Below are positions 31,509 through 43,681 of a DNA stretch of 62,916 bases, in pieces. The position numbers and the translations under genes are program-made. The notes below the pieces were generated by a model. That model was given only the letters and a program-made list of their open reading frames with translations. It did not search any database and had not been told where the DNA came from. The stretch covers positions 1 through 62,916 of the forward strand of contig NZ_CALUYL010000019.1 of the NCBI RefSeq assembly GCF_944324995.1, given 5' to 3'. The first letter of the stretch is position 1; each line of letters starts with the position of its first letter. The DNA is from an uncultured Mailhella sp. GTDB lineage: Bacteria; Desulfobacterota; Desulfovibrionia; Desulfovibrionales; Desulfovibrionaceae.

Positions 31509-32933
31509 TCAGCTGAACTTGACGCCTCTTTTCTCCAGTTCCTTCACCTTGCGGAATATCGTGCTCCTGTCCACGTTAAGTTCCTTTGCGATATTCGCAA
31601 TGCTGCCGTACTTGTGCATGGCGGCCTGAAGAACAATGCCCTCCATCTCCTTCATGATTTCCTTATAGCTGCGCCCGTCGAAGTTGACGGCAGGCTGCGC
31701 TCCGCCTTCCTGTCTTCTGCCCGCGGCCAGCGAATTTCCCAGCGGCAGCTGCGAAGGATGAATGACGCCGTCCGAACAGGTGACGGCAATCCCCTGCACC
31801 ATGTTTTTGAGCTCCCGCACATTGCCCGGCCAGGGATAGTTCTGCAGAGCTTTTTCCGCTTCAGGAGAAAATTCCAGTTTGCGTCCGTACTTGTGCGCAA
31901 AAAAATCCAAAAAGAAATGCGCCATGGGAAGAATGTCGTCCCTGCGATCCCTCAGCGGAGGAATGGTCAGCACGGCAATCTTCAGACGATAATACAGATC
32001 ACTTCGGAATTCACCGTTGGCAATGGCCTTTTCCAAATCCTTGTTGGTGGCCGCAATAATGCGCACGTCCAGTCTCTTCGGCGTGGTGGCGCCGACTCTC
32101 AAGACCTCGCCGTCCTGCAGAAAACGCAGAAGACGCGTCTGCATGGCTATGGGCAGTTCACCTATTTCGTCAAGAAACATGGTGCCGTTGTTGGCTGCCT
32201 CTATGAGCCCCACCTTGCCGTTTCTGTTTGCGCCGGAAAACGTTCCCCCCACATAACCGAACAGTTCCGTTTCAATGAGCTGAGGAGAAATGCTGCCGCA
32301 GTCCACCTTGATGAACGCGTTTTCGGCCCGACCGCTCTCGGTATGAATTCTTCGGGCCAGCACATCCTTGCCCACCCCGGTTTCTCCCAAAATCAGTACG
32401 GGAGCATCCGTCTTGGCAATAACGCTCACCTTGTTTCTCAACCGGGTCATGACAGAACTCTGCACGATTTCCGGCATCTGGGTAAAGGCCGAATTCTGCG
32501 GGGAGTTGCTGAGCTTGGAAAACACATCCAGCAGCTCCTTCTGAAACAGCAGCCGACTCTGAAGCTCCTGGAGAGAACTCTCGTCCCGAAGCAACGTCAC
32601 ACAGAAAACGACATTATGATGACTGTCGAAAATGGGATGCCCTTCAAGCACCAGTCTGCGCCCATTGGACAACGTCTGCACACGGGTCACCATTTTTCCC
32701 GTGCGGAAGACTTCAGGATTCAGAACTACATCAAATACGCCCTTGCTGGTAAATTCATGAACATCATGTCCTATCATGCTGTCATGCTGCACGCCGGTCA
32801 TGCTTTCATGCATGGCATTCAGGAACAGCACCTTACCCTGCGCATCAGTGACGCAAACACCGTCACTGAACACATCCAGGACCTGAGCAAGATAATCTCT
32901 CAGCATAGTAAGTTCATTAATATCAGACGTCAT
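31509..32933 (-). CDS. Sigma-54-dependent transcriptional activator (PAS-AAA-Fis)
   Basis: 474 residues. A PAS domain (about 10-115) is the likely ligand or signal sensor. The AAA+ sigma-54 interaction module (about 155-390) has Walker A GETGVGKD (183-190), Walker B GTMFLDE (250-256) and, in place of GAFTGA, GTFSGA (230-235). A Fis-type helix-turn-helix lies at 443-465 (SIANIAKELNVDRSTIFRKVKELE). No receiver domain is present. Its own promoter at 33249-33277 is sigma-70 type. Three operons nearby start at sigma-54 promoters with shared dyads, so this protein is the obvious activator of isethionate use; that assignment is inference. Confidence 0.92.
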   Translation of the reverse strand: MTSDINELTMLRDYLAQVLDVFSDGVCVTDAQGKVLFLNAMHESMTGVQHDSMIGHDVHEFTSKGVFDVVLNPEVFRTGKMVTRVQTLSNGRRLVLEGHPIFDSHHNVVFCVTLLRDESSLQELQSRLLFQKELLDVFSKLSNSPQNSAFTQMPEIVQSSVMTRLRNKVSVIAKTDAPVLILGETGVGKDVLARRIHTESGRAENAFIKVDCGSISPQLIETELFGYVGGTFSGANRNGKVGLIEAANNGTMFLDEIGELPIAMQTRLLRFLQDGEVLRVGATTPKRLDVRIIAATNKDLEKAIANGEFRSDLYYRLKIAVLTIPPLRDRRDDILPMAHFFLDFFAHKYGRKLEFSPEAEKALQNYPWPGNVRELKNMVQGIAVTCSDGVIHPSQLPLGNSLAAGRRQEGGAQPAVNFDGRSYKEIMKEMEGIVLQAAMHKYGSIANIAKELNVDRSTIFRKVKELEKRGVKFS

Positions 32934-33248
32934 ACCAGCACCTGAATGTAGTTCATTGTGACTTCACCCTGATCTTTTTACCAGCAACAACTCTTGATAA
33001 ATCCACATTTATAATTACACAAACAAACATATAATAACTTTTATTAATTCAATTTATATATAATACGTTATCAATATATTAAAAAAGTATTAATAATATA
33101 ATTAAATATAAATAAAATACATTAATTATGAATATTTTATATAATACGCATCCGCAAAAACAATATTCAATATATGAATATGCTCAACATGCGATTCCCG
33201 CAAAATAAAATGAAAAACTTTCCTACAGTTTCAAAAATTATTTCAGTT

Positions 33249-33277
33249 ATGATAGGACACTTGATTTTTTGAGTCAA
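33249..33277 (-). promoter_or_regulatory. Sigma-70 promoter of the sigma-54 activator gene
   Basis: On the minus strand TTGACT and TATCAT with a 17-base spacer. It implies a 300-base AT-rich leader before the start at 32933. Confidence 0.65.
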
Positions 33278-33532
33278 ATTTTTCTTTTTTTATTGAATTT
33301 TTTTCTATTACTTGTATTTAATATCAAAACAAAAAAAACATAAGCATTCCATTTCTTATCATATAATAGCATGACATCTCAGAAAAGTTTAAAAAAAAAC
33401 AAAAAACTTTAATAATTGAAACACATTTACATAATTGTAAAACATTTTAAAAAAATATATATCTCATACATGATGACAAGACATTATTTCAATACATGGA
33501 AATACATGTCGAACATTAAAAGCCGAAAAGTA

Positions 33533-33568
33533 ATCGGCACATGTCGAAAAAATACGACATATGCCGAT
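33533..33568. repeat. Long inverted repeat, operator-like
   Basis: ATCGGCACATGTCG and CGACATATGCCGAT face each other across AAAAAATA, a 14-base arm with one mismatch. It lies just downstream of the dctM terminator in the AT-rich block and has no T-tract after it. Confidence 0.7.
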
Positions 33569-33676
33569 CTGCAAAAACGACGCAACTGCATCGTGCTGCG
33601 CCGCCGATTTCAGAGGCCAACGCACGACTTTCAGGCATGGCACGAAAAATTAGCAGACGCAACTGTGTTACATAAA

Positions 33677-33710
33677 AGACAGCCCGGAACATTGTGATGT
33701 TCCGGGCTGC
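33677..33710 (-). terminator. Terminator of the dctPQM operon
   Basis: AGCCCGGAACAT...ATGTTCCGGGCT stem; the minus strand continues with CTTTT. Confidence 0.85.
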
Positions 33711-33732
33711 GAAAAGGTTCAGAAAAGTTCAG

Positions 33733-35034
33733 CTAGACGCCGTATCCGAGGAAGCGGGGAAGCCATGTGGCAATGCCGGGGAAGAAGGTTATGAGAAGCA
33801 CGCAGATGGTAAGCGTTCCCACATAGGGCAGAACGGCCACGGCGTTTCTTTCCACGGAAATGCCCGCTATTCGTGAAGAGACGAAGATGTTTACGCCCAG
33901 AGGCGGCGTCAGCAGAGCCGTTTCATTGGTAAGAACCAGAATGATGCCGAAGTGGATGGGATCGATTCCAAGCTGCACAATGACGGGAAGGAGCACCGGC
34001 ACCAGAATGATCAGGGTGGACAGCGTCTCCATGAACATGCCGAGGATATAGAGAACCACGATGATCAGCAGCAGCACGACGGTCGGGTTGCTGGTGAAGT
34101 CGAAGATCAGCTGGGCAAGCTTCTGAGGAGCCTGTTCATAGGTAAGGATCTTGCCGAACAGCGTGGAGGAACCGACAATGATGAGCACCGCGCCGCAGGT
34201 CATGACGCCTTCGATGAGGGCGAGATAAATATGACGGGGCTTGAGGGAGCGGTTGATCACGAAGCCGACGAACAGCGAGTAGGCAATGGCCACCACGGAG
34301 GCTTCAACGGGCGTGGCATAGCCGGAGTAGATGGAGCCCAGAATGATGACGGGAGTCATCAGGGCAAAGGTACTCTTTCCGCAGGTGCGGCAGAATACCT
34401 TGAAATTGAAGGGTTCGGGGTTGTCGTCGCCCTTGAAGCCCTTGCGGCGGGCGATGATGTACGCCGTAGTCATCATGGACATGGCCACGAGGAAGCCGGG
34501 AATAAAGCCGGCGGTGAACATGGCCGTCACGGAAAGGTTGCCCAGAATGGCGTAGATGATCATGGGGTTGGACGGCGGAATCATGATGCCGATGGTGCCG
34601 CCGGACGAAGCGGCTGCGGCTGCGTAGTCCTTGGAATAGCCGCATCTGACCATGGCGGGAACCATGATGGTGCCCACGGCGGCCACGGTGCCCGGGCCGG
34701 AACCGGAAATGGCGGCAAAGAACGTGCAGGCAAGAATGGTGGTGATGCCGAGTCCGCCGTACATGCGGCCGACCAGCATTTTCGCCACGTTGATAATTTG
34801 TTGTGTTATGTTCCCGTACTCCATGAGCGCGCCGGCGACAACGAAGCAGGGAATGGCCAACAGCGTGAAGATGTTGATGCCTTCAAAAAGCGAGTTGTGA
34901 ATGACGGAAAGCGGAAGCATGCTGTCGCCCAGAAGCAGGGCCGCCGAAGAGGCGATAATGAGCGACATGAAGATGGGCAGCCCCATAAGGAGCATGAGGA
35001 ACAGGGTGCAGAGTGCAATTTCCAGCGTAGACAT
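33733..35034 (-). CDS. dctM: TRAP transporter large permease DctM (isethionate-type)
   Basis: 433 residues, about 12 membrane segments, the ion-coupled translocation subunit of a tripartite ATP-independent periplasmic transporter. Family marks are MLLMGLPIFMSLIIASSAALLLGD near the start, the GSGPGTVAAVGTIMVPAM loop and SGGTIGIMIPPSNPMIIYAI. It begins in an overlap with the dctQ stop (TGATG), so coupling is tight. With DctP and DctQ and their sigma-54 promoter it is the best candidate for isethionate uptake. Confidence 0.95.
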   Translation of the reverse strand: MSTLEIALCTLFLMLLMGLPIFMSLIIASSAALLLGDSMLPLSVIHNSLFEGINIFTLLAIPCFVVAGALMEYGNITQQIINVAKMLVGRMYGGLGITTILACTFFAAISGSGPGTVAAVGTIMVPAMVRCGYSKDYAAAAASSGGTIGIMIPPSNPMIIYAILGNLSVTAMFTAGFIPGFLVAMSMMTTAYIIARRKGFKGDDNPEPFNFKVFCRTCGKSTFALMTPVIILGSIYSGYATPVEASVVAIAYSLFVGFVINRSLKPRHIYLALIEGVMTCGAVLIIVGSSTLFGKILTYEQAPQKLAQLIFDFTSNPTVVLLLIIVVLYILGMFMETLSTLIILVPVLLPVIVQLGIDPIHFGIILVLTNETALLTPPLGVNIFVSSRIAGISVERNAVAVLPYVGTLTICVLLITFFPGIATWLPRFLGYGV

Positions 35035-35540
35035 CAGACATCCTCCTCAAAGCGGACGAGACCGTTCAACGTTCCGTTCTTCCAGCGGATGTAGTAGTCT
35101 GCCACGATGCGCCAGGCCACAAGCACGAAGCTGAAGGGAATGATGGATTCCACCCAGGCCTTGGCAAATCCCATGGTGGGAGAAATTTCGGGAAATTCAA
35201 AGCCTTCTTCGATGACAGGGAGGCTGCTGAATGCAATGAAAATAAGAAAGCAGACCCAGATGATGTCGCCGATCACACGGAAGAACATGCGCGCCTTGTC
35301 GCCCATCCACAGGAACTGGGCAGTAACGCGTACGTGGGCTCCGCGCTTGGCAACCAGCGCCGCTCCCAGAAACACCGACCAGAGAAAGGTGTAGCGGGAA
35401 AGTTCCTCGGTCCAGGCGATGGACGTTCCCAGAGTCATTCTGGCTGCAACCTGCGCCATGAGACACAGAATCATGGCGCTCAACATGATGCAGCACAGCC
35501 CTTCCTCAAAATAGTCATAGACTTTTTTCAGTATGCTCAT
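35034..35540 (-). CDS. dctQ: TRAP transporter small permease DctQ
   Basis: 168 residues with four membrane helices, and the RMTLGTSIAWTEELSRYTFLWSVFLGAALVAKRGAHVRV stretch typical of DctQ small subunits. It joins DctM in the membrane part of the transporter. The stop overlaps the dctM start by one base, and the start lies 87 bases after dctP. Confidence 0.93.
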   Translation of the reverse strand: MSILKKVYDYFEEGLCCIMLSAMILCLMAQVAARMTLGTSIAWTEELSRYTFLWSVFLGAALVAKRGAHVRVTAQFLWMGDKARMFFRVIGDIIWVCFLIFIAFSSLPVIEEGFEFPEISPTMGFAKAWVESIIPFSFVLVAWRIVADYYIRWKNGTLNGLVRFEEDV

Positions 35541-35627: not shown

Positions 35628-36629
35628 TTACTTGGCCGAGATGATGGCCACGGCTTCATCCACAAGGGCCTTTCCGCCGACGGAATCGTAGAGCTGGGGC
35701 CACACGGAGCGGGCGGCTTCGATCCACTTGGGCTCATCGGTCAGCTGATTCACGACCATGCCGTGATCGATGCATTCCTGACGGGCAATGGAATCCTGTT
35801 CTTCAGACCACTGCCATTCATAAGCGACGGCTTCCTTGACGGCCTTGTTCACGAGTTCCTTGGTCTGAGGATCAAGTTTGCGATACCATCTTTCGCTGGC
35901 AAGGAACGGTCCGACCCAGTACAGGTAGTGAACTTCCGTCACATACTTCTGAACTTCCCAGAACTTCTGGTCGCGGTTGATGGTGTGGGGGTTTTCCTGA
36001 CCGTCCACAACGCCCTGCTGCAGGCCGTTGAAGGTTTCGGACCAGGCAAGAGGATGCGGTTCCACGCCCCAGGCGCGGAAGGTTTCAAGCTGAAGCGTCA
36101 CGCCGGGCACACGGATCTTCAGGCCCTTGAGATCGTCCAGCTTGGTGATGGGATGCTTGGAGTTGGTAATGTGACGATAACCGCCGATGAGCCAGCCGAG
36201 AGGACGGGTGCGGCTTTCCTTGACGATGATGTCGGTCAGCTTGTTCATGAAGGCTTCATTGGAAAGCAGCTTCTTGGCATCTTCGGGCGTGGGGAACATA
36301 TAAGGCATGTAAAGAACACCGGCAGAAGGAGCAGCAGGCGTGAAGTTGCCGCAGGCAGTAACGGTAATGTCGAGTTCGCCGTCGCGGCACTGCTTGACGT
36401 TGGCCTGCTCGTCGCCGAGGGAGCCGCCGTAGAACGTCTGCACCTTGATGGCGCCGTTGGATTCACGTTCAATAATTTCCTTGAACTTCTCCAGTGCCGT
36501 TACATGATGGCTTCCCTGCGGATTGGCCGTAGCCACGCGAATATTCATCTTCTTGTATTCGACAGCCTCGCCCGTGCTCACCATCCCAAGCAGGGCCAGC
36601 ACAGTCAGTCCGCAAATCAAACCTTTCAT
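35628..36629 (-). CDS. dctP: TRAP transporter periplasmic solute-binding protein DctP
   Basis: 333 residues. A signal peptide covers the first 22 or so (MKGLICGLTVLALLGMVSTGEA). The mature protein is a DctP fold with the central helix region GLKIRVPGVTLQLETFRAWGVEPHPLAWSETFNGLQQGVVDGQENP; the Arg in KIRVP normally binds the acid group of the ligand. The ATG at 36629 follows GGAGGAGG; an in-frame ATG five codons earlier would lie upstream of that site. First gene of dctPQM, preceded by a sigma-54 promoter and GTGCA-type dyads shared with islA, hence the proposed ligand isethionate. Confidence 0.93.
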   Translation of the reverse strand: MKGLICGLTVLALLGMVSTGEAVEYKKMNIRVATANPQGSHHVTALEKFKEIIERESNGAIKVQTFYGGSLGDEQANVKQCRDGELDITVTACGNFTPAAPSAGVLYMPYMFPTPEDAKKLLSNEAFMNKLTDIIVKESRTRPLGWLIGGYRHITNSKHPITKLDDLKGLKIRVPGVTLQLETFRAWGVEPHPLAWSETFNGLQQGVVDGQENPHTINRDQKFWEVQKYVTEVHYLYWVGPFLASERWYRKLDPQTKELVNKAVKEAVAYEWQWSEEQDSIARQECIDHGMVVNQLTDEPKWIEAARSVWPQLYDSVGGKALVDEAVAIISAK

Positions 36630-36858
36630 AAACTCCTCCTCCATTAATTTGTTATAGAATTTACACTTCTATAATAGCATCACAAGCATGACAACCTGTG
36701 AATATCCCTGACGCGAGGGCAATGGAAAAACAACTATGCTTTCTGATGGAAAATCACGAAAACTCATTGAAACATTCTGTTCATACCCGGCACAGGTCAT
36801 ACCCCGTTGCAAAGACATGTATGAATTTTTCACAAATTTTCGGATTCTTCTTTATCTC

Positions 36859-36875
36859 TGCAAAAACCGTACCAA
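36859..36875 (-). promoter_or_regulatory. Sigma-54 promoter of dctPQM
   Basis: On the minus strand TTGGTACGGTTTTTGCA: GG and GC exactly 10 bases apart, one mismatch to TTGGCACG-N4-TTGCA. Transcription would start near 36847, about 220 bases before dctP. Confidence 0.8.
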
Positions 36876-37034
36876 CATTTTACAGGCAAGGCCTTTCCAG
36901 CGGCTTTTTCGTCAACTTCTTTAAACTTATTATATTCTTCACATTTACACATTATTGTTGACAATTTCCCCCTCCCGAACTTGGGCGTGCAACACGCCTT
37001 TTTCCCCGAAAAACGCTCCTTCTGCACGGCTATT

Positions 37035-37050
37035 TGTGTAAAAATACAAT
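37035..37050. promoter_or_regulatory. Degenerate copy of the activator dyad
   Basis: GTGTA-AAAA-TACAA, the same frame as GTGCA-N4-TGCAC with symmetrical C to T changes. Centre about 170 bases upstream of the dctP sigma-54 promoter. Confidence 0.5.
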
Positions 37051-37121
37051 ATTGAGCTTTTTTGCACATATCAAAAATATAAATCAACCCATTGTTTTTA
37101 TTCTATATATAATTTTTTAGT

Positions 37122-37135
37122 GTGCATTTTTGCAC
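37122..37135. promoter_or_regulatory. Activator dyad GTGCA-TTTT-TGCAC
   Basis: Perfect inverted repeat, about 250 bases upstream of the dctP sigma-54 promoter, identical in plan to the site at 39793-39806 before islA. Confidence 0.65.
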
Positions 37136-37459
37136 TACACGTTTCCGTAAGGCGGAAAATGTGCACTTTTTCCCCTGAAAATGCGCTTTTCCGGTTTCTC
37201 ATCGGCAACATATTATTTTTTCTACAAAAATACGTACTGAAACGCATGCGGTTTCACCAGAGGCAGAGGGCCTCGCCTTCACGAAATCGCAGACGAACCG
37301 GGAACCGTTCCCCCCTCCGGTTGAACCGGCCCCCTTCATGTGCAATACATCACAAATCATCTCCGACACCCGCCTCCGCTTTCCGAAACAACCGCCGACC
37401 AGGGGCTTTCCTTACACAATCGCCCTACTGTGCATTTCAAGCGGCCGCGCCTCTCTCGA

Positions 37460-37511
37460 TAAAACAAGACCGGCGGTCACAACGTTCTCAATGACGTCAT
37501 GACCGCCGGTC
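37460..37511 (-). terminator. Terminator of the DUF4125-usp-amidohydrolase operon
   Basis: TGACCGCCGGTC and GACCGGCGGTCA, a 12-bp perfect stem with a long loop; TTGTTTT follows on the minus strand. Confidence 0.75.
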
Positions 37512-37542
37512 GCCACAGACTGACAGGACGGAAGATGCGCTA

Positions 37543-38391
37543 TCAGGCCAGCTTTATATTAAGGAGACGTTCGGCGTTCTTATAGAAAAACTTTTCCTTG
37601 TGTTCCTGAGAGAAGTTGAAGCGTTCCAGATCCTGAATGGCCTGCTTCATGTTGTAGCAGGGCCAGGCGGAACCGTAGAGAATGCGCTCGCCGTCGAGCC
37701 ACTTCATGGCTTCGCCGAACATCTGGTTGCCGGGAGCCGTGGGGTTCAGCATGTAGATGTCGGGCAGCAGCCACACGTTCTTGTTGGTGATGGCCACCTG
37801 GAAGATCATGGGAATCCACGGATAGCAGCCGTGGGCAACGACGATCTGCAGATTCGGGAAGTCGTTGGCCACATGCTGCACGGCGCTGGGATCGGAATAT
37901 TCCAGCGTGCCCTGGAAGAAGCTCATGGTCAGCACCATGGGAATGCCGGCCTTTTCGCAACGCGCGTAAAGAGGATAAAGCACGTTGGCGTCGGCCTTTC
38001 TGGGCGGCATGGCATAGGCGGGTTCCATGGCAACACCCTTGATGCCGCCTTCGATGCAGCGCTCAAGCTCGTCCATGGTGGCGGAAACGCCGCGGGTAAT
38101 GTCGAGGCTGCCGAAAGGAATGATCTTGTCGGGAAACTCGCGCGCCATGGCCAGGATATCGTCATTGGGAACGGAAGCGGCATCATTGGGCACCTGTCTT
38201 CCTATGATGACGCCCTTGGAAATGCCCGCGTCCGCCATTTCCTTCCAGAACAGGTCCAGATCCTTCTTGCGCGCGGCTTCGCTGGGAATGCCGTGATACT
38301 TCTGAGGGGCAGATTCGTTGCAGATGGGGCTGAAAATGCCGAGATTCTTGAATCCCTTGTAGGGAGGACGAAGACGAAAATCGAATATCAT
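37543..38391 (-). CDS. Amidohydrolase-2-like protein with a lost HxH metal motif
   Basis: 282 residues with the barrel pattern of the amidohydrolase-2 (ACMSD-like) family: IDFxxxP start, GVAMEPAYA, LQIVVAHGCYPWIPMI with a His near residue 187, and the end LYGSAWP plus NAERLLNI. The normal N-terminal D-x-H-x-H metal site reads DFRLRPP (Arg6 and Arg8), and the late GSD Asp reads GSA. A metal-dependent decarboxylase or hydrolase therefore seems unlikely; a binding or altered activity is possible. Last gene of the minus-strand operon with DUF4125 and Usp, 48 bases after usp. Confidence 0.8.
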   Translation of the reverse strand: MIFDFRLRPPYKGFKNLGIFSPICNESAPQKYHGIPSEAARKKDLDLFWKEMADAGISKGVIIGRQVPNDAASVPNDDILAMAREFPDKIIPFGSLDITRGVSATMDELERCIEGGIKGVAMEPAYAMPPRKADANVLYPLYARCEKAGIPMVLTMSFFQGTLEYSDPSAVQHVANDFPNLQIVVAHGCYPWIPMIFQVAITNKNVWLLPDIYMLNPTAPGNQMFGEAMKWLDGERILYGSAWPCYNMKQAIQDLERFNFSQEHKEKFFYKNAERLLNIKLA

Positions 38392-38439
38392 GGAACTTTC
38401 TCCGATATGGAACAGTAAAAATTGCGGTATCAGAAACGG

Positions 38440-38910
38440 CTAGAAATCTTCTTCAGGCGAACATTCGAGGCTGAGATCATTGGGAATGATCATGACGGGC
38501 ACACGGCTTCTGTTTATGAGACGGGCGGACGTCTTGCCGGAAAAGTTGAACAGACCGTGGGTATTGAGGCTGCCCATGATGACGAGATCGGCGCACTTTT
38601 TATCCACCAGTTCGTTGATGGCCTCATCAATCCGGCCGGTCAGCACCAGCGGGGAACAGGGCAGATCGGAGAAGTATTTGGCCGCAAACTCACGCACATG
38701 CTTTTCCGTTTCGCTGCGGCTGTCTTCCGCAACCTTCTTGAGCTTGTCGTAGCCGGAGCCGTAGTTGGAAAAACTGCCGACAGGAGGAAGCACATGGACA
38801 AGAATAATTTTCGCCCCGGTCAGTTCGGCCATTTCGCGGCAGTACGAAACAATATCCTCGTTGTTCTCGGTCAGATCGATGCAGCAGGCTATGGTAGAAA
38901 ATGAGCTCAT
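38440..38910 (-). CDS. Universal stress protein (UspA family)
   Basis: 156 residues. The ATP-binding type motif appears as DLVIMGSLNTHGLFNFSGKTSARLINRSRVPVMIIP (G-x2-G-x9-G-S/T like arrangement altered: GSLNTHG, then SGKTSARL). The N-terminal TIACCIDLTENNEDIVSYCREMAELTGAKIILVHVLPP is the usual first half. The ATG at 38910 lies 10 bases after AAAGGAG; an ATG three codons earlier is too close to that site. It is the middle gene of the operon, 24 bases after the DUF4125 gene. Its link to sulfonate use is unknown. Confidence 0.88.
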   Translation of the reverse strand: MSSFSTIACCIDLTENNEDIVSYCREMAELTGAKIILVHVLPPVGSFSNYGSGYDKLKKVAEDSRSETEKHVREFAAKYFSDLPCSPLVLTGRIDEAINELVDKKCADLVIMGSLNTHGLFNFSGKTSARLINRSRVPVMIIPNDLSLECSPEEDF

Positions 38911-38934
38911 GATTGGCATACTCCTTTGTTTGGC

Positions 38935-39495
38935 CTACCGCTTTGCGGCCAGCCTGTTTTCATACTCGGCCAAGGAGCCCTCGCCGAGCGTGGACCACAG
39001 ATAGTCGTAGCGCTCCAGAACAGGATTTCTGGACTCCTCGCGGGCCTTTTTCAGCTCTCCGGCATACAGTTCCAGCGTGCGGTCAGACAGCGTCTCCAGC
39101 TCGCAACGCATATATTTACGGAAAAAGGTGTGATCGCCCACCGTTATCGCATGAGGATACCGCTCGGCGGCCTCAATGAGAAACTCGAGTTCCATGTCGG
39201 CAATCGCATCCAGAAAAGGACTCTCGGAAAGAGGAGGAATGCGGTCGTCCATGCGGGCGTATTTCTCGATCATGACATTGCGTCCCGCCTCTTCGGCCTC
39301 GCGCAGATCCTGAAGATACGATTCAAGCGTAGCCTTGTCATGAGTGCAGTGGTTCATGCGACGCATGAGGCGGAAGGACTGCGGACGGGTCTGGCAGGGA
39401 CTGGTGCCGCCTTCATTGGGAGTGGCGAGGAACATGTTCAGTTCCCGTTCGACGATTTCCTTAATAAGACTTTCCTTTTCTTCTTCGATAACCAT
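38935..39495 (-). CDS. DUF4125 family protein
   Basis: 186 residues, all helical in appearance and rich in Glu and Arg. The core MFLATPNEGGTSPCQTRPQSFRLMRRMNH, then SYLQDLREAEEAGRNVMIEKYARMDDRIPPL, matches what I know as DUF4125. The family has no established function. ATG at 39495 follows AAGGA; an in-frame start seven codons upstream has no site. First gene of the operon behind a sigma-54 promoter, and so expected to be expressed together with islA. It might be a cofactor or accessory protein, but the sequence gives no catalytic clue. Confidence 0.78.
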   Translation of the reverse strand: MVIEEEKESLIKEIVERELNMFLATPNEGGTSPCQTRPQSFRLMRRMNHCTHDKATLESYLQDLREAEEAGRNVMIEKYARMDDRIPPLSESPFLDAIADMELEFLIEAAERYPHAITVGDHTFFRKYMRCELETLSDRTLELYAGELKKAREESRNPVLERYDYLWSTLGEGSLAEYENRLAAKR

Positions 39496-39635
39496 AAAAA
39501 AGTCCTTCAAAAACAATTTCCGGGCGCAAGGTGCAGGGACGGCCCGATCTTCTGCCTTCGGCCCACAAGCTCCGGCATCGGATCATTCGTCCGGCGCGCC
39601 GTCATAAGGAAAAAATCTTTCCCTTCCTAAATATA

Positions 39636-39652
39636 TGCAAAAAACATGCCAT
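39636..39652 (-). promoter_or_regulatory. Sigma-54 promoter of the DUF4125-usp-amidohydrolase operon
   Basis: Minus strand ATGGCATGTTTTTTGCA: GG and GC are 10 bases apart, and all but one or two positions match TTGGCACG-N4-TTGCA. About 140 bases before the DUF4125 start. Confidence 0.8.
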
Positions 39653-39792
39653 CTTTTCAGCGGTTTTGCCCCCATCCATGCGCAGGTCAGGCACCGTCCT
39701 TTTTCCTCTAACAGCGCGAATTTAAAAAATGAATTTTTTTATCTCCTGCCGGCGGTCCGCCTCTTCGGCAGCACCCCGGAAAAGCCTTGTTG

Positions 39793-39806
39793 TGCAAAAA
39801 TGCACG
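39793..39806. promoter_or_regulatory. Activator dyad GTGCA-AAAA-TGCAC
   Basis: Perfect inverted repeat centred 148 bases from the minus-strand sigma-54 promoter and about 180 bases from the islA promoter, so it could serve both. Confidence 0.65.
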
Positions 39807-39885
39807 ATAAAGGCTTCCTTTCCTGATTTTGTGTTTTTTTACTCATTTTAAAATACAAATAAAAACAGTATATTGAATATAAAAG

Positions 39886-39899
39886 TCGCAAAAATGCAC
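39886..39899. promoter_or_regulatory. Activator dyad, second copy before islA
   Basis: TCGCA-AAAA-TGCAC, one arm changed at its first two bases, centred 93 bases after the first copy and about 85 bases upstream of the islA sigma-54 promoter. Confidence 0.55.
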
Positions 39900-39975
39900 A
39901 CTGTTTTTCGCAAACAAATCAGAAACAAAAACCTCGAAAAATAGAAATTATCAATAAAAACAACAAGATAATTTT

Positions 39976-39992
39976 TTGGCACGATTCATGCA
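39976..39992 (+). promoter_or_regulatory. Sigma-54 promoter of islA
   Basis: TTGGCACGATTCATGCA: perfect -24 element TTGGCACG and a -12 GC at the exact 10-base distance. Transcription would start near 40003; a GAAAGGCG hairpin at 40014-40032 sits at the 5' end of the message, followed by TTTGGAGGA as ribosome site. Confidence 0.88.
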
Positions 39993-40056: not shown

Positions 40057-42531
40057 ATGTCCCAGTGCTGCGCTTGCCTTTCTCCCCAGGAAGAACGCCT
40101 CAACAGCAAGACGGTCAACCGCAAGGGACGCGAACGCGTCTACAAGATTCTCGACCGCATTCAGTTCACCGTTCCCCACGTGGACGTCGAACGCGCCAAG
40201 TACTTCACTGAATCCATGAAGACCACCGAGGGCGAACTGCTCACCCTCCGCTGGGCCAAGGCTCTGAAGAACGTCGCGGAAAAGATCACCGTCTACATCA
40301 CCCCCGATCAGCTTCTTGCCGGCCGCGTCGGTCAGCTCGGCCGCTACGGCATTCTGTATCCTGAAATCGACGGCGACTTCTACCGTGAAGTGCTGGCCGA
40401 CCTTGATCATCGTGAAAAGAGCCCCTTCATCATTTCTCCCGAAGACAAGCGCATCGTCATGGAAGAGATTGCGCCCTACTGGGAAGGAAAGACCTATCAT
40501 GAACATCTGAACAAGGTCATTCCCGCAGAAATCCGCGAAGTGACCTACGACGACGAACGCGGCCTGAAGTCCAAGTTCATCGTTTCCGAAACTTCCTCCT
40601 ATCGTTCCGCCCTTCAGTGGGTGCCGGACTATGAAAAGGTCATCAAGCGCGGCTTCATCGACATTCAGAACGAAGCCAAGGAACGCCTGAGCAAGCTCGA
40701 CCTCACCAACTCCGTGGATCTGTGGGAAAAGAAGCCCTTCTACGAAGCCATGATCATCGTGTGCGACGCCATCATGATCTGGGCTCATCGTCATGTGGAA
40801 CTGGCCCGCAGCCTGGCCGCCACCGAAGCCGATCCCAAGCGCAAGGCCGAACTGCTTGAAATCGCCGAAATCTGCGAACGCGTTCCCGCCTACCCCGCCC
40901 GCACCTTCCGCGAAGCCGTGCAGTGCCAGTGGTTCGTGCAGATGTTCTCCCGCATTGAACAGAAGGCCAGCGCCATCATCTCCAACGGTCGTATGGACCA
41001 GTACTTCTATCCTTACTACAAGAAGGACATCGAAGAAGGCCGCATCACCCGCGAACAGGCCAAGGAACTTCTGGAATGCATGTGGGTCGACATGGCGCAG
41101 TTCATCGACCTGTACATCAACCCCACCGGCAACGAATTCCAGGAAGGCTACGCTCACTGGGAAGCCGTGACCATCGGCGGACAGACCCCCGACGGCGAAG
41201 ACGCCACCAACGATCTGTCCTACCTGTTCCTGGAATCCAAGAGAGAATTCCCGCTGAACTACCCCGACCTGGCCACCCGCATCCATGCCCGCACGCCTGA
41301 GCGCTTCATGTACGAAATCGCCCTTACCATCAAGGACGGTTCCGGCTTCCCCAAGCTCATCAACGACGAAGAAGTCGTGTTCCTGAACACCGTCAAGGGC
41401 GTTCCGGTCAATGAAGCTCTGGACTACGCCATCTCCGGCTGCACCGAAACCCGTCATCCCAACCGCGACACCTACACCTCCGGCTGCGTGTACATCAACT
41501 TCGGCGCCGCCCTCGAAATGCTGCTCTACAACGGCCGCATGCTGCACTACGGCGACGAGCTGCTCGGTCTGGAAACCGGCGATCCCTGCGAATTCAAGAC
41601 CTGGGAAGAATTCTACGAAGCCTACAAGAAGCAGCACATCAACCTGCTGCACAAGGCCTTCCAGCAGCAGCACATCGTTGACTGCCTGCGTCCCCAGCAC
41701 TTCGCCGCTCCGCTCTCTTCCGTGCTCCACAACCTCTGCATGGAAAACGCCCTCGATCTGCACACCCAGAAGATCCCCGGCGGCGTGGACTTCTCCTACT
41801 TTGAATTCCTCGGCTACGGCACCGTCACCGACTCCCTGGCCGCCATCAAGAAGCTCGTCTTTGAAGAAAAGAAGCTTACCATGAAGGAACTGCTGGAAGC
41901 CCTGAAGGCCGACTTCGTGGGTTACGAACCCATCCAGCAGATGCTGAAGAGCGCTCCCGCCTACGGCAACAACGATCCCTATGCCGACAGCATCGCCAAG
42001 GACATCGACAGATTCACCCAGGTCGAAGCTGAAAAGAGCAGCCGTGAACGCGGCATCCATGTGGACGTGCGCTATGTGCCCATCACCTCCCATGTGCCCT
42101 TCGGCAAGATCATCGGCGCCACGCCCAACGGCCGCAAGGCCGGCACCGCTCTGTCCGACGGTTCCTCCGCCTCTCACGGCGCCGACCATCAGGGCCCGAC
42201 CGGCGACCTGCTCTCCAACTTCCATTCCAAGAACTACGGCATGATCAACCGTGCGTCCCGCCTCCTGAACATCAAGCTTTCGCCCAAGGCCGTGGCCGGT
42301 GAGGAAGGCACCCACAAGATCATGAACCTCATCCGCACCTGGTGCGACCTGAAGCTGTGGCATCTGCAGTTCAACATCATCAACCGCGCCACGCTTGAAG
42401 CCGCCCAGAAGGATCCCAGCAACTACCGCAACCTGATCGTCCGCGTCGCCGGCTACAGCGCCTTCTTCTGCGACATGTCCCGCGACCTGCAGAACGACGT
42501 CATCGAACGTACCGAACACTCCGAAGTGTAG
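40057..42531 (+). CDS. islA: Isethionate sulfite-lyase (glycyl radical enzyme)
   Basis: 824 residues. It cleaves the C-S bond of isethionate to give sulfite and acetaldehyde, by a glycyl/thiyl radical chain in the anaerobic cytoplasm. The radical Gly799 is in RVAGYSA, the thiyl Cys462 and the acid Glu464 in SGCTET, and Arg183, Gln187 and Arg672 occupy the sulfonate pocket. Each is exactly six less than the Bilophila wadsworthia IslA numbers as I recall them (805, 468, 470, 189, 193, 678), and the total length is also six shorter, so orthology rather than a choline, glycerol or DHPS lyase is supported. The start has TTTGGAGGAT. It is followed by a strong terminator, then by its activase gene. 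Confidence 0.95.
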
Positions 42532-42772: not shown

Positions 42773-43681
42773 ATGCAGGACAGCAAACAAAAAGGAATAA
42801 TCTTCAACATCCAGAAGTTCAGCGTTCATGACGGTGCGGGCATACGTACCATCGTATTCTTCAAGGGCTGCCCCCTGCGCTGCCGCTGGTGCAGCAATCC
42901 CGAATCCCAGCTTTTTACTCCTGAGCGGGCCTTCAACCCCACCAGATGTCTGACGGCCGCCGTCTGCGGTCGCTGCTCCAGAGCCTGCCCCACGGGAGCC
43001 ATCACCGTCGTCGACGGCATGAACTGCTACAACCGGGCCCTGTGCACCTCCTGCGGAGCCTGCGTAAACGCCTGTCCTTCCGGCGCCCAGTCCTTCTACG
43101 GATATGAAACCACGGTGGAAGAGGTCATCAAAAAGGTGGAAGAGGACGACGTGTTCTACACGAGATCCGGCGGAGGTCTCACGCTCTCCGGCGGCGAAGC
43201 CCTGGCTCAGCCCGAATTTGCGCTCGCCATGCTGCGGGAAGCCAAATATCACAGACTCTCCACCGCCATCGAAACCTGCGGCTGCTATCCGACCGAAGTG
43301 CTGGACGAAGCCTGTCACTATCTCGATCAGCTTATTTTCGACGTAAAATCTCTGGACGACGAAAAGCACAAGAAGTTCACCGGCAGCAGCAACAAGCAGA
43401 TTCTCCAGAACATCCAGCATGTCTTTGAACATTTCCCCTCTCTGCCCATTCTGATCCGCACCCCCGTCATTCCCGGCTTCAATGATACGGAAGAGGAAAT
43501 CATGGCCATCCGCCGCATGATTCCTCTGCGTCCCAACATCAAATACGAAGCGCTCACCTATCACCGCATGGGTCAGCCCAAGTACGGCTATCTGGGACGC
43601 CCGTATCTTCTCGAAGGCGCCAAGGCCGACGAAGCCTTCATGAAAGAGCTTCGGGCCAAACTGGACGCCTATCAGGGATAA
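42773..43681 (+). CDS. islB: IslA-activating enzyme (radical SAM glycyl-radical activase)
   Basis: 302 residues. It uses SAM and a 4Fe-4S cluster to abstract hydrogen from Gly799 of IslA. The SAM cluster CxxxCxxC is Cys33, Cys37 and Cys40 (CPLRCRWC). A clostridial-type insert of two ferredoxin-like clusters follows (Cys59-65-68-72 and Cys85-91-94-97-101), and the GGGLTLSGGEALAQPEF motif binds SAM. An AGGAG site precedes the ATG. It lies 240 bases behind islA, past a terminator, so it should be made in far smaller amounts than IslA. Confidence 0.94.
   Translation: MQDSKQKGIIFNIQKFSVHDGAGIRTIVFFKGCPLRCRWCSNPESQLFTPERAFNPTRCLTAAVCGRCSRACPTGAITVVDGMNCYNRALCTSCGACVNACPSGAQSFYGYETTVEEVIKKVEEDDVFYTRSGGGLTLSGGEALAQPEFALAMLREAKYHRLSTAIETCGCYPTEVLDEACHYLDQLIFDVKSLDDEKHKKFTGSSNKQILQNIQHVFEHFPSLPILIRTPVIPGFNDTEEEIMAIRRMIPLRPNIKYEALTYHRMGQPKYGYLGRPYLLEGAKADEAFMKELRAKLDAYQG

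Follow-up and report, generated by a model that had tools for sequence, protein, structure and literature searches.

The DNA analysed here, a stretch of 62,916 nucleotides from an uncultured Mailhella sp. (contig NZ_CALUYL010000019.1 of RefSeq assembly GCF_944324995.1) that we call the window, encodes a glycyl radical enzyme and its radical SAM activase, a TRAP transporter (DctPQM), a divergent operon for a DUF4125 protein, a universal stress protein (Usp) and an amidohydrolase, and a sigma-54-dependent activator (Table 1). The intergenic regions before dctP and before the lyase gene contain copies of a dyad, GTGCA-N4-TGCAC, which a preliminary description made from the sequence alone had regarded as the likely binding site of the activator in front of an isethionate lyase gene, islA.

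Table 1. Operators, sigma-54 promoters and genes of the locus. PWM, score in the position weight matrix derived without the window; promoter scores have a maximum of 22.
Feature	Position	Strand	Details
Distal operator before hpsG	39788..39809	no strand	core 39792-39805 GTGCAAAAATGCAC; PWM 17.7
Middle operator before hpsG	39827..39848	no strand	GTGTTTTTTTACTCA; weak in the window, PWM 10.6
Proximal operator before hpsG	39882..39903	no strand	core 39886-39899; PWM 11.2
Sigma-54 promoter of hpsG	39977..39992	+	TGGCACGATTCATGCA; score 20.8/22
Divergent sigma-54 promoter, DUF4125-Usp-amidohydrolase	39636..39651	-	TGGCATGTTTTTTGCA; score 21.0/22
First dctP operator	37032..37053	no strand	PWM 19.0, window maximum; KTGY-W6-RCAM match 37036-37049
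Second dctP operator	37050..37071	no strand	PWM 13.5; 18 bases from first
Third dctP operator	37118..37139	no strand	PWM 16.5; exact dyad 37122-37135
Possible weak operator	37336..37357	no strand	TCATGTGCAATACATCACAAAT; candidate from PWM 12.0 alone
Sigma-54 promoter of dctPQM	36859..36874	-	TGGTACGGTTTTTGCA; score 20.0/22
HpsG-type glycyl radical enzyme (likely DHPS sulfite-lyase)	40057..42531	+	6LON 1630 bits; 5YMR 1236, 7KQ3 1154
HpsH-type radical SAM activase	42773..43681	+	Pfam; adjoins hpsG in relatives
PAS - sigma-54 AAA+ - helix-turn-helix activator, proposed ligand	31509..32933	-	Pfam PF13426/PF00989, PF00158, PF18024
DctM, TRAP transporter large membrane subunit	33733..35034	-	Pfam
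DctQ, TRAP transporter small membrane subunit	35034..35540	-	Pfam
DctP, TRAP transporter solute-binding protein	35628..36644	-	Pfam
Amidohydrolase family protein, divergent operon	37543..38391	-	Pfam; 94% identical copy, same order, in G178
Universal stress protein family, divergent operon	38440..38919	-	Pfam
DUF4125 protein, first gene of divergent operon	38935..39516	-	Pfam

The lyase was compared with three structures, namely 6LON, which we take to be HpsG of Bilophila wadsworthia, 5YMR, presumably the isethionate lyase of Desulfovibrio vulgaris, and 7KQ3, which served as reference for the isethionate lyase of B. wadsworthia. Neither bit scores nor identities placed the enzyme closest to 7KQ3 or 5YMR, as would be expected of an IslA protein; across a segment of about 100 residues, its identity is 89% with 6LON, compared with 59% and 56% for the other two structures. 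Over the same residues, one protein of Bilophila faecipullorum is 98% identical to 6LON and another 100% identical to 7KQ3. The window lyase and the IslA-type protein of B. faecipullorum share 61% identity; for the two B. wadsworthia enzymes, HpsG and IslA, Hanson et al. (2021, PMC8397734) report 60.6%. No relevant paper on structure 6LON was found in the open-licence literature. As the window lyase is closer to 6LON than to the IslA structures, we call its gene hpsG, and these similarities make 2,3-dihydroxypropane-1-sulfonate (DHPS) its likely substrate. The names islA and isethionate in the preliminary description are therefore not supported: the IslA-like gene of this genome lies on another contig, C38, in an operon with its own activator and different operators (TATGC-N6-GCATA), and the isethionate reading was rejected in view of this separate operon and the 6LON-like enzyme. 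The genome encodes eight glycyl radical enzymes in all (contigs C1, C5, C7, C29, C38 and the window). For seven of them, a match to a sigma-54 activator lies no further than about 7 kb away, which points to roughly one activator for each glycyl radical enzyme cluster.

The dyads themselves are real, and the observation that started this work is confirmed. Exact copies lie at 37122-37135, as had been described, and at 39792-39805, one base away from the earlier position (39793-39806). Of the two weaker copies, the one placed at 37035-37050 is a genuine site that overlaps the best match in the window, and the one at 39886-39899 is present with two mismatches. Measured from centre to centre, the pairs are 86 and 94 bases apart instead of 86-93; their described distance of 85-270 bases upstream of the sigma-54 promoters holds, as does the position of the pair before the lyase gene between two divergent sigma-54 promoters. 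When the whole 62.9 kb were scanned with a position weight matrix derived without the window, all of the seven best matches (starts 37032, 39788, 37118, 37050, 37336, 39882 and 39827, with scores falling from 19.0 to 10.6) were located in the two intergenic regions, and the eighth scored 8.7. Three of the seven, starting at 37050, 37336 and 39827, had been overlooked before.

It is the exact, A/T-spaced form of the dyad and its placement that stand out, not the number of loose copies. With up to two mismatches, GTGCA-N4-TGCAC occurs 25 times in the window against 33 expected from shuffles, and counts of mismatched dyads were dropped as evidence since they showed no excess. Across the 2.9 Mb genome there are five exact dyads, compared with none for the reversed control, and an A/T spacer is confined to the two in the window. 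The refined consensus KTGY-W6-RCAM, which is derived below, has eight genomic matches (control 3), including three in the window, and a genome scan with TGTGCAAAAATGCACA allowing three mismatches gave 14 matches (control 8), of which four are in the window and the rest were taken as noise. In an alignment of same-genus loci, sites and promoter stand out against poorly conserved DNA. The distal hpsG operator has counterparts in four of five rows, and the middle one pairs with GTGTTTTTTTGCTCA in three rows; in G184, where the distal operator is missing, the middle one pairs with an exact dyad. A counterpart of the dctPQM promoter element, TTGGCACGCTTTTTGCA, is present in G185, of the same genus.

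To follow the motif in relatives, we used upstream regions obtained from a scan of named genomes (best 80 of 99) and of 288 family genomes. These were divided into group A (at least 79% identity; 30 loci including the window, from 29 genomes), group B (66-75% identity, 13 loci, of which L158 also scores best against 6LON), group C (27 lyases below 66% identity from family genomes, mostly isl-type) and group D (37 others, mostly from other families and phyla). Rows were dropped from group A when fewer than 400 bases lay upstream (L123, L134, L082), from group B when this was fewer than 300 bases (L166, L185) or the locus was a fragment (L081), and from group D below 400 bases or 58% identity; among the 27 rows of group C are six operon-internal isl genes of the window's genus, whose upstream 700 bases are not promoters. 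An unseeded search for gapped palindromes recovered TGCA-N4-TGCA in 21 of the 30 group A loci (shuffle maximum 8), where it is the best four-base word apart from plain A/T runs, as well as in 6/13 group B and 11/27 group C loci (shuffle maximum 5 in each), with one G/C palindrome tying with it in group C. It was not among the top words of group D in this search.

A palindromic matrix of 22 bases was then obtained by expectation maximization. Its half-sites, K-T-G-Y, flank six A/T-rich central bases, and its most informative positions are the TGC/GCA half-sites and not the A-tract. The operator is better written KTGY-W6-RCAM than GTGCA-N4-TGCAC. A site scoring at least 12 is present in 28 of the 29 other group A loci, compared with 1.5 in shuffles, although these same loci trained the matrix. 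Outside the training set, such sites were found in 8/13 group B (shuffles 0.6), 10/27 group C (0.5) and 11/37 group D loci (1.4), and the motif is thus retained only partly in group D. As a consensus, KTGY-W6-RCAM is not specific in every genome: the matches located at hps sites were 4/6 in G178, 2/2 in G182 and 0/5 in G193 by position, and those at hps genes were 5/20 in G038 (control 10) and 6/14 in G058 (control 16). The 22-base matrix is the better tool.

Enhancers of sigma-54 promoters are palindromic sites, usually two or more, located roughly 80-200 bases upstream. The hps sites have this arrangement, with a -24/-12 promoter downstream and multiple palindromes at enhancer distance. All 30 group A loci have a sigma-54 promoter scoring at least 17.5 of 22 (mean of mononucleotide shuffles 1.6), and a strong one is present in 12 of the 13 group B loci. 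Distances were taken from the site centre to the start of the -24 element. In the group A loci, the proximal site is centred 84-88 bases upstream in 17 cases, 74-76 in seven and 82 in one, giving two preferred positions, one helical turn apart, that account for 24 of the 30 loci; the proximal hpsG operator of the window, at 84 bases, takes a position common to its relatives. Across the 42 loci of groups A and B (score at least 11, thinned to 12 bases apart), 72 of 80 sites are 60-200 bases upstream and none is at 77-81 or 89-132 bases. Second sites are mostly 133-151 bases upstream, and at 178-185 bases in five of six loci of the window's genus.

The matrix also outlines a candidate regulon. 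In 39 loci covering 653 kb, 80 matches scored at least 15, of which 48 lie within 700 bases before hpsG. The remaining 32 comprise two before the window dctP, two before a second hpsG of G178 and 28 just beyond hpsH, 3.54-5.14 kb past the hpsG start (L082, in which hpsG is cut, was placed separately). Among 11 relatives whose sequence reaches the downstream dctP, 10 have a site scoring at least 13 in the interval from hpsH to dctP, the exception being B. faecipullorum (L084). These hpsH-dctP sites are 87 bases apart in the same-genus locus L027, compared with 86 for the window dctP pair; in L157, the genes following the downstream site encode, by eye, an amidohydrolase and a protein resembling the major facilitator superfamily. 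In eight relatives, dctPQM is followed directly or after one further gene by the activator gene, which suggests that the activator might regulate its own expression there. In the window, the 799 bases between the activator gene and dctM (32934-33732) have a G+C content of 29% and weak matrix matches (8.7), and the activator's own promoter may lie in this region. In L156 (G178), two hpsG copies are located about 7 kb apart with an activator gene between them, and a separate dyad pair and sigma-54 promoter belong to each copy.

The activator has the domain set of a PAS-type one-component bacterial enhancer-binding protein, and its GAFTGA loop is the variant GTFSGA. Among 61 related activators, the loop reads FSG in 57 and FTG in four. 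Nearly all of the C-termini shown have D/N-R-S/T-S/T-x-F-R-K in the recognition helix, with L056 and L053 differing. A matching activator is encoded on the same contig, within about 1-10 kb, in 29 of 43 hpsG genomes (in G038, the nearer activator is the second-best match). In 11 others it is on another contig of a fragmented assembly; of these, the G184 protein has an hps-like helix-turn-helix, and the G185 protein (50% identity) could be the isl type of the genus. Three genomes (G073, G076, G048) had no activator or only an isl-type one. Eight genomes that lack a glycyl-radical match at 1e-200 also lack the activator at 1e-120. G192, which belongs to the same species as the window and is 97% complete on a single contig, lacks hpsG and its activator; it has only an isl-linked activator (51%), and none of its four KTGY-W6-RCAM matches is a GTGCA dyad. 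The hps locus therefore seems to vary within the species. In a tree of the 61 activators, which did not include the DVU2827 and IslR sequences themselves, the window activator is placed among the hps-labelled proteins and 20 of the 26 isl-labelled ones lie on a separate side. The remaining six, all from the window's genus, are found inside the hps group beside the hps activators of that genus, on a branch of 1.5. The labels were assigned by us, hps mostly to whichever protein of an hpsG genome best matches the window activator; this favours an hps grouping, though most of the hps-labelled rows also adjoin hpsG.

Starting from the sites, promoters, gene order, conservation, preferred spacing and the linkage and grouping of the activator, we infer how binding and activation might proceed, what might induce them and which promoters might respond. 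An activator dimer would recognise each KTGY-W6-RCAM palindrome via its C-terminal helix-turn-helix, and dimers on two or three neighbouring sites would nucleate an AAA+ hexamer, which could contact the sigma-54 polymerase from the preferred distances. Three promoters would be opened in this way, those of hpsG(H), of the divergent DUF4125-Usp-amidohydrolase operon and of dctPQM. DHPS or a cleavage product of it would probably be the inducer, with the PAS domain as its sensor. We consider it highly probable that the activator of the locus uses the dyads as upstream activating sequences and works by this mechanism, and the enhancer role proposed in the preliminary description is supported by the conservation, the promoter spacing and the strong sites at the same genes in relatives. 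Overall, its interpretation is partly supported, as the enzyme was misassigned.

Several observations weigh against this proposal. Plain A/T palindromes come near the rank of the dyad in group A at four bases and exceed it at five and six, and together with the G/C tie in group C this means that the unseeded search by itself is no proof; the matrix was seeded with the dyad itself, and the group A loci are related, so that counts over these genomes are not independent trials. The proximal site falls below the threshold in five of the 30 group A loci, and L029 has a sigma-54 promoter and no site. The genome contains 25 matches to the activator, another of which could bind the operators, and G073 carries hpsG and a dyad (L037) with no hps-type activator found, which speaks against strict co-occurrence. 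One could ask whether the dyads reflect chance or composition, that is, palindromic A-tracts in A/T-rich intergenic DNA that bend the promoter in an IHF-like manner. The abundance of A/T palindromes before hpsG and the lack of excess of two-mismatch dyads in the window would agree with this, but the information peaks at the TGC/GCA half-sites, the same-genus alignment shows the dyads as islands in DNA that is otherwise poorly conserved, and shuffles give about 1.5 of 29 loci where 28 are observed. We therefore regard this explanation as very improbable.

Less easily dismissed, yet still improbable in our view, is that another dimeric regulator of the Rex, CRP/FNR or TetR type binds the dyads and controls sulfonate or redox genes, with the sigma-54 activator binding elsewhere. 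Palindromes of 18-22 bases with an A/T-rich middle are common for many dimeric regulators. However, the position of the dyads is tied to the sigma-54 promoter, the strong matches in 653 kb are all at hps genes, the Rex (TTGTGA...) and FNR (TTGAT...) consensus sequences lack TGC/GCA half-sites, and the outer base differs between hps and isl promoters of the window's genus, as do their activators. That the dyads are instead the operator of an isethionate regulator before islA is scarcely credible, given the 6LON-like enzyme and the C38 operon described above, even though islR is needed for growth with isethionate in another species (PMC6386719), isl-type activators and operators are related, and TGCA-N4-TGCA precedes 11/27 mostly isl-type genes (where a G/C palindrome ties).

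The isl system of the same genus offers a comparison with the hps operators. Its operon begins at dctP, with a sigma-54 promoter scoring 22.0/22, and the isl operator TATGC-N6-GCATA is located about 3.2-3.7 kb upstream of islA (L138/L136/L140-L143). When one core mismatch was allowed, the base just outside the core was A in 31 of 34 isl half-sites (six genomes, two of one species) and G or T in 23 of 24 hps half-sites. The window's own genome and G192 each contain two copies of TATGC-N6-GCATA (controls 1 and 0), and all four belong to the isl promoter; elsewhere, the matches in the isl promoter were 3/4 in G178, 2/4 in G190, 2/3 in G191 and 1/5 in G194 (controls 2, 1, 0 and 1). Judging from the tree, the isl activator of the genus is likely a duplicate of the hps activator; owing to the long branch (1.5), this origin is not certain. 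We lean towards the view that the isl locus is run by this diverged duplicate and that the two sets of operators are insulated by one symmetric base, G/T for hps and A for isl. If true, nature would here have switched specificity between the two sulfonate circuits of a single cell, visibly in both protein and DNA, and the hps/isl pair would provide a testable case of duplicated enhancer-binding proteins diverging by one operator base.

Taken together, the analysis corrects the likely substrate from isethionate to DHPS. It also provides an operator and a candidate regulon for the respiration of DHPS, through which breakdown products of plant sulfoquinovose are converted to hydrogen sulfide by bacteria of the gut and rumen. 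The matrix can be used to find hps targets in Desulfovibrionaceae genomes. With regard to known systems, hpsGH of B. wadsworthia, like the window, encodes an HpsG/HpsH-type enzyme and activase, and its expression is strong in cells growing with DHPS (Hanson et al., 2021, PMC8397734); a term search of the accessible text of that paper returned no regulator or operator for it, and no report of an hps operator was found in the open-licence literature. Growth of Desulfovibrio alaskensis G20 with isethionate depends on islR, which is predicted to encode a regulator (Peck et al., 2019, PMC6386719). Both islR and the window activator gene are presumed to regulate a cluster for a sulfonate lyase, but islR belongs to an isl and not an hps system, and the accessible part of that paper yielded no description of its operator.

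A close parallel in kind is DVU2827 of D. vulgaris, for which sites were predicted before DVU2824 and its orthologues, probably acting on an amidohydrolase gene as well (Kazakov et al., 2015, PMC4641369). The statement that no consensus had been described thus needs qualifying, as such predicted sites exist, although the available text of that study gives no motif letters, the motif being a figure, and mentions no binding test that we could find. As in the window, a one-component sigma-54 activator is linked to a glycyl-radical-enzyme operon, the locus includes a C4-dicarboxylate-type transporter and an amidohydrolase gene, and the predicted sites accompany conserved sigma-54 promoters. Both activators have an FSG variant of the loop, GAFSGA in DVU2827 (Table 1 of PMC4641369) and GTFSGA in the window. 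They differ in that the DVU2827 enzyme is annotated as pyruvate formate-lyase, whereas the window enzyme is HpsG-type and its activator falls into the hps group. The kind of system described here is therefore already known from the DVU2827 sites predicted in 2015 and the islR requirement, whereas, within the open-licence literature searched, what appears to be new is the operator of the hps genes with its preferred spacing, together with the base switch between hps and isl.

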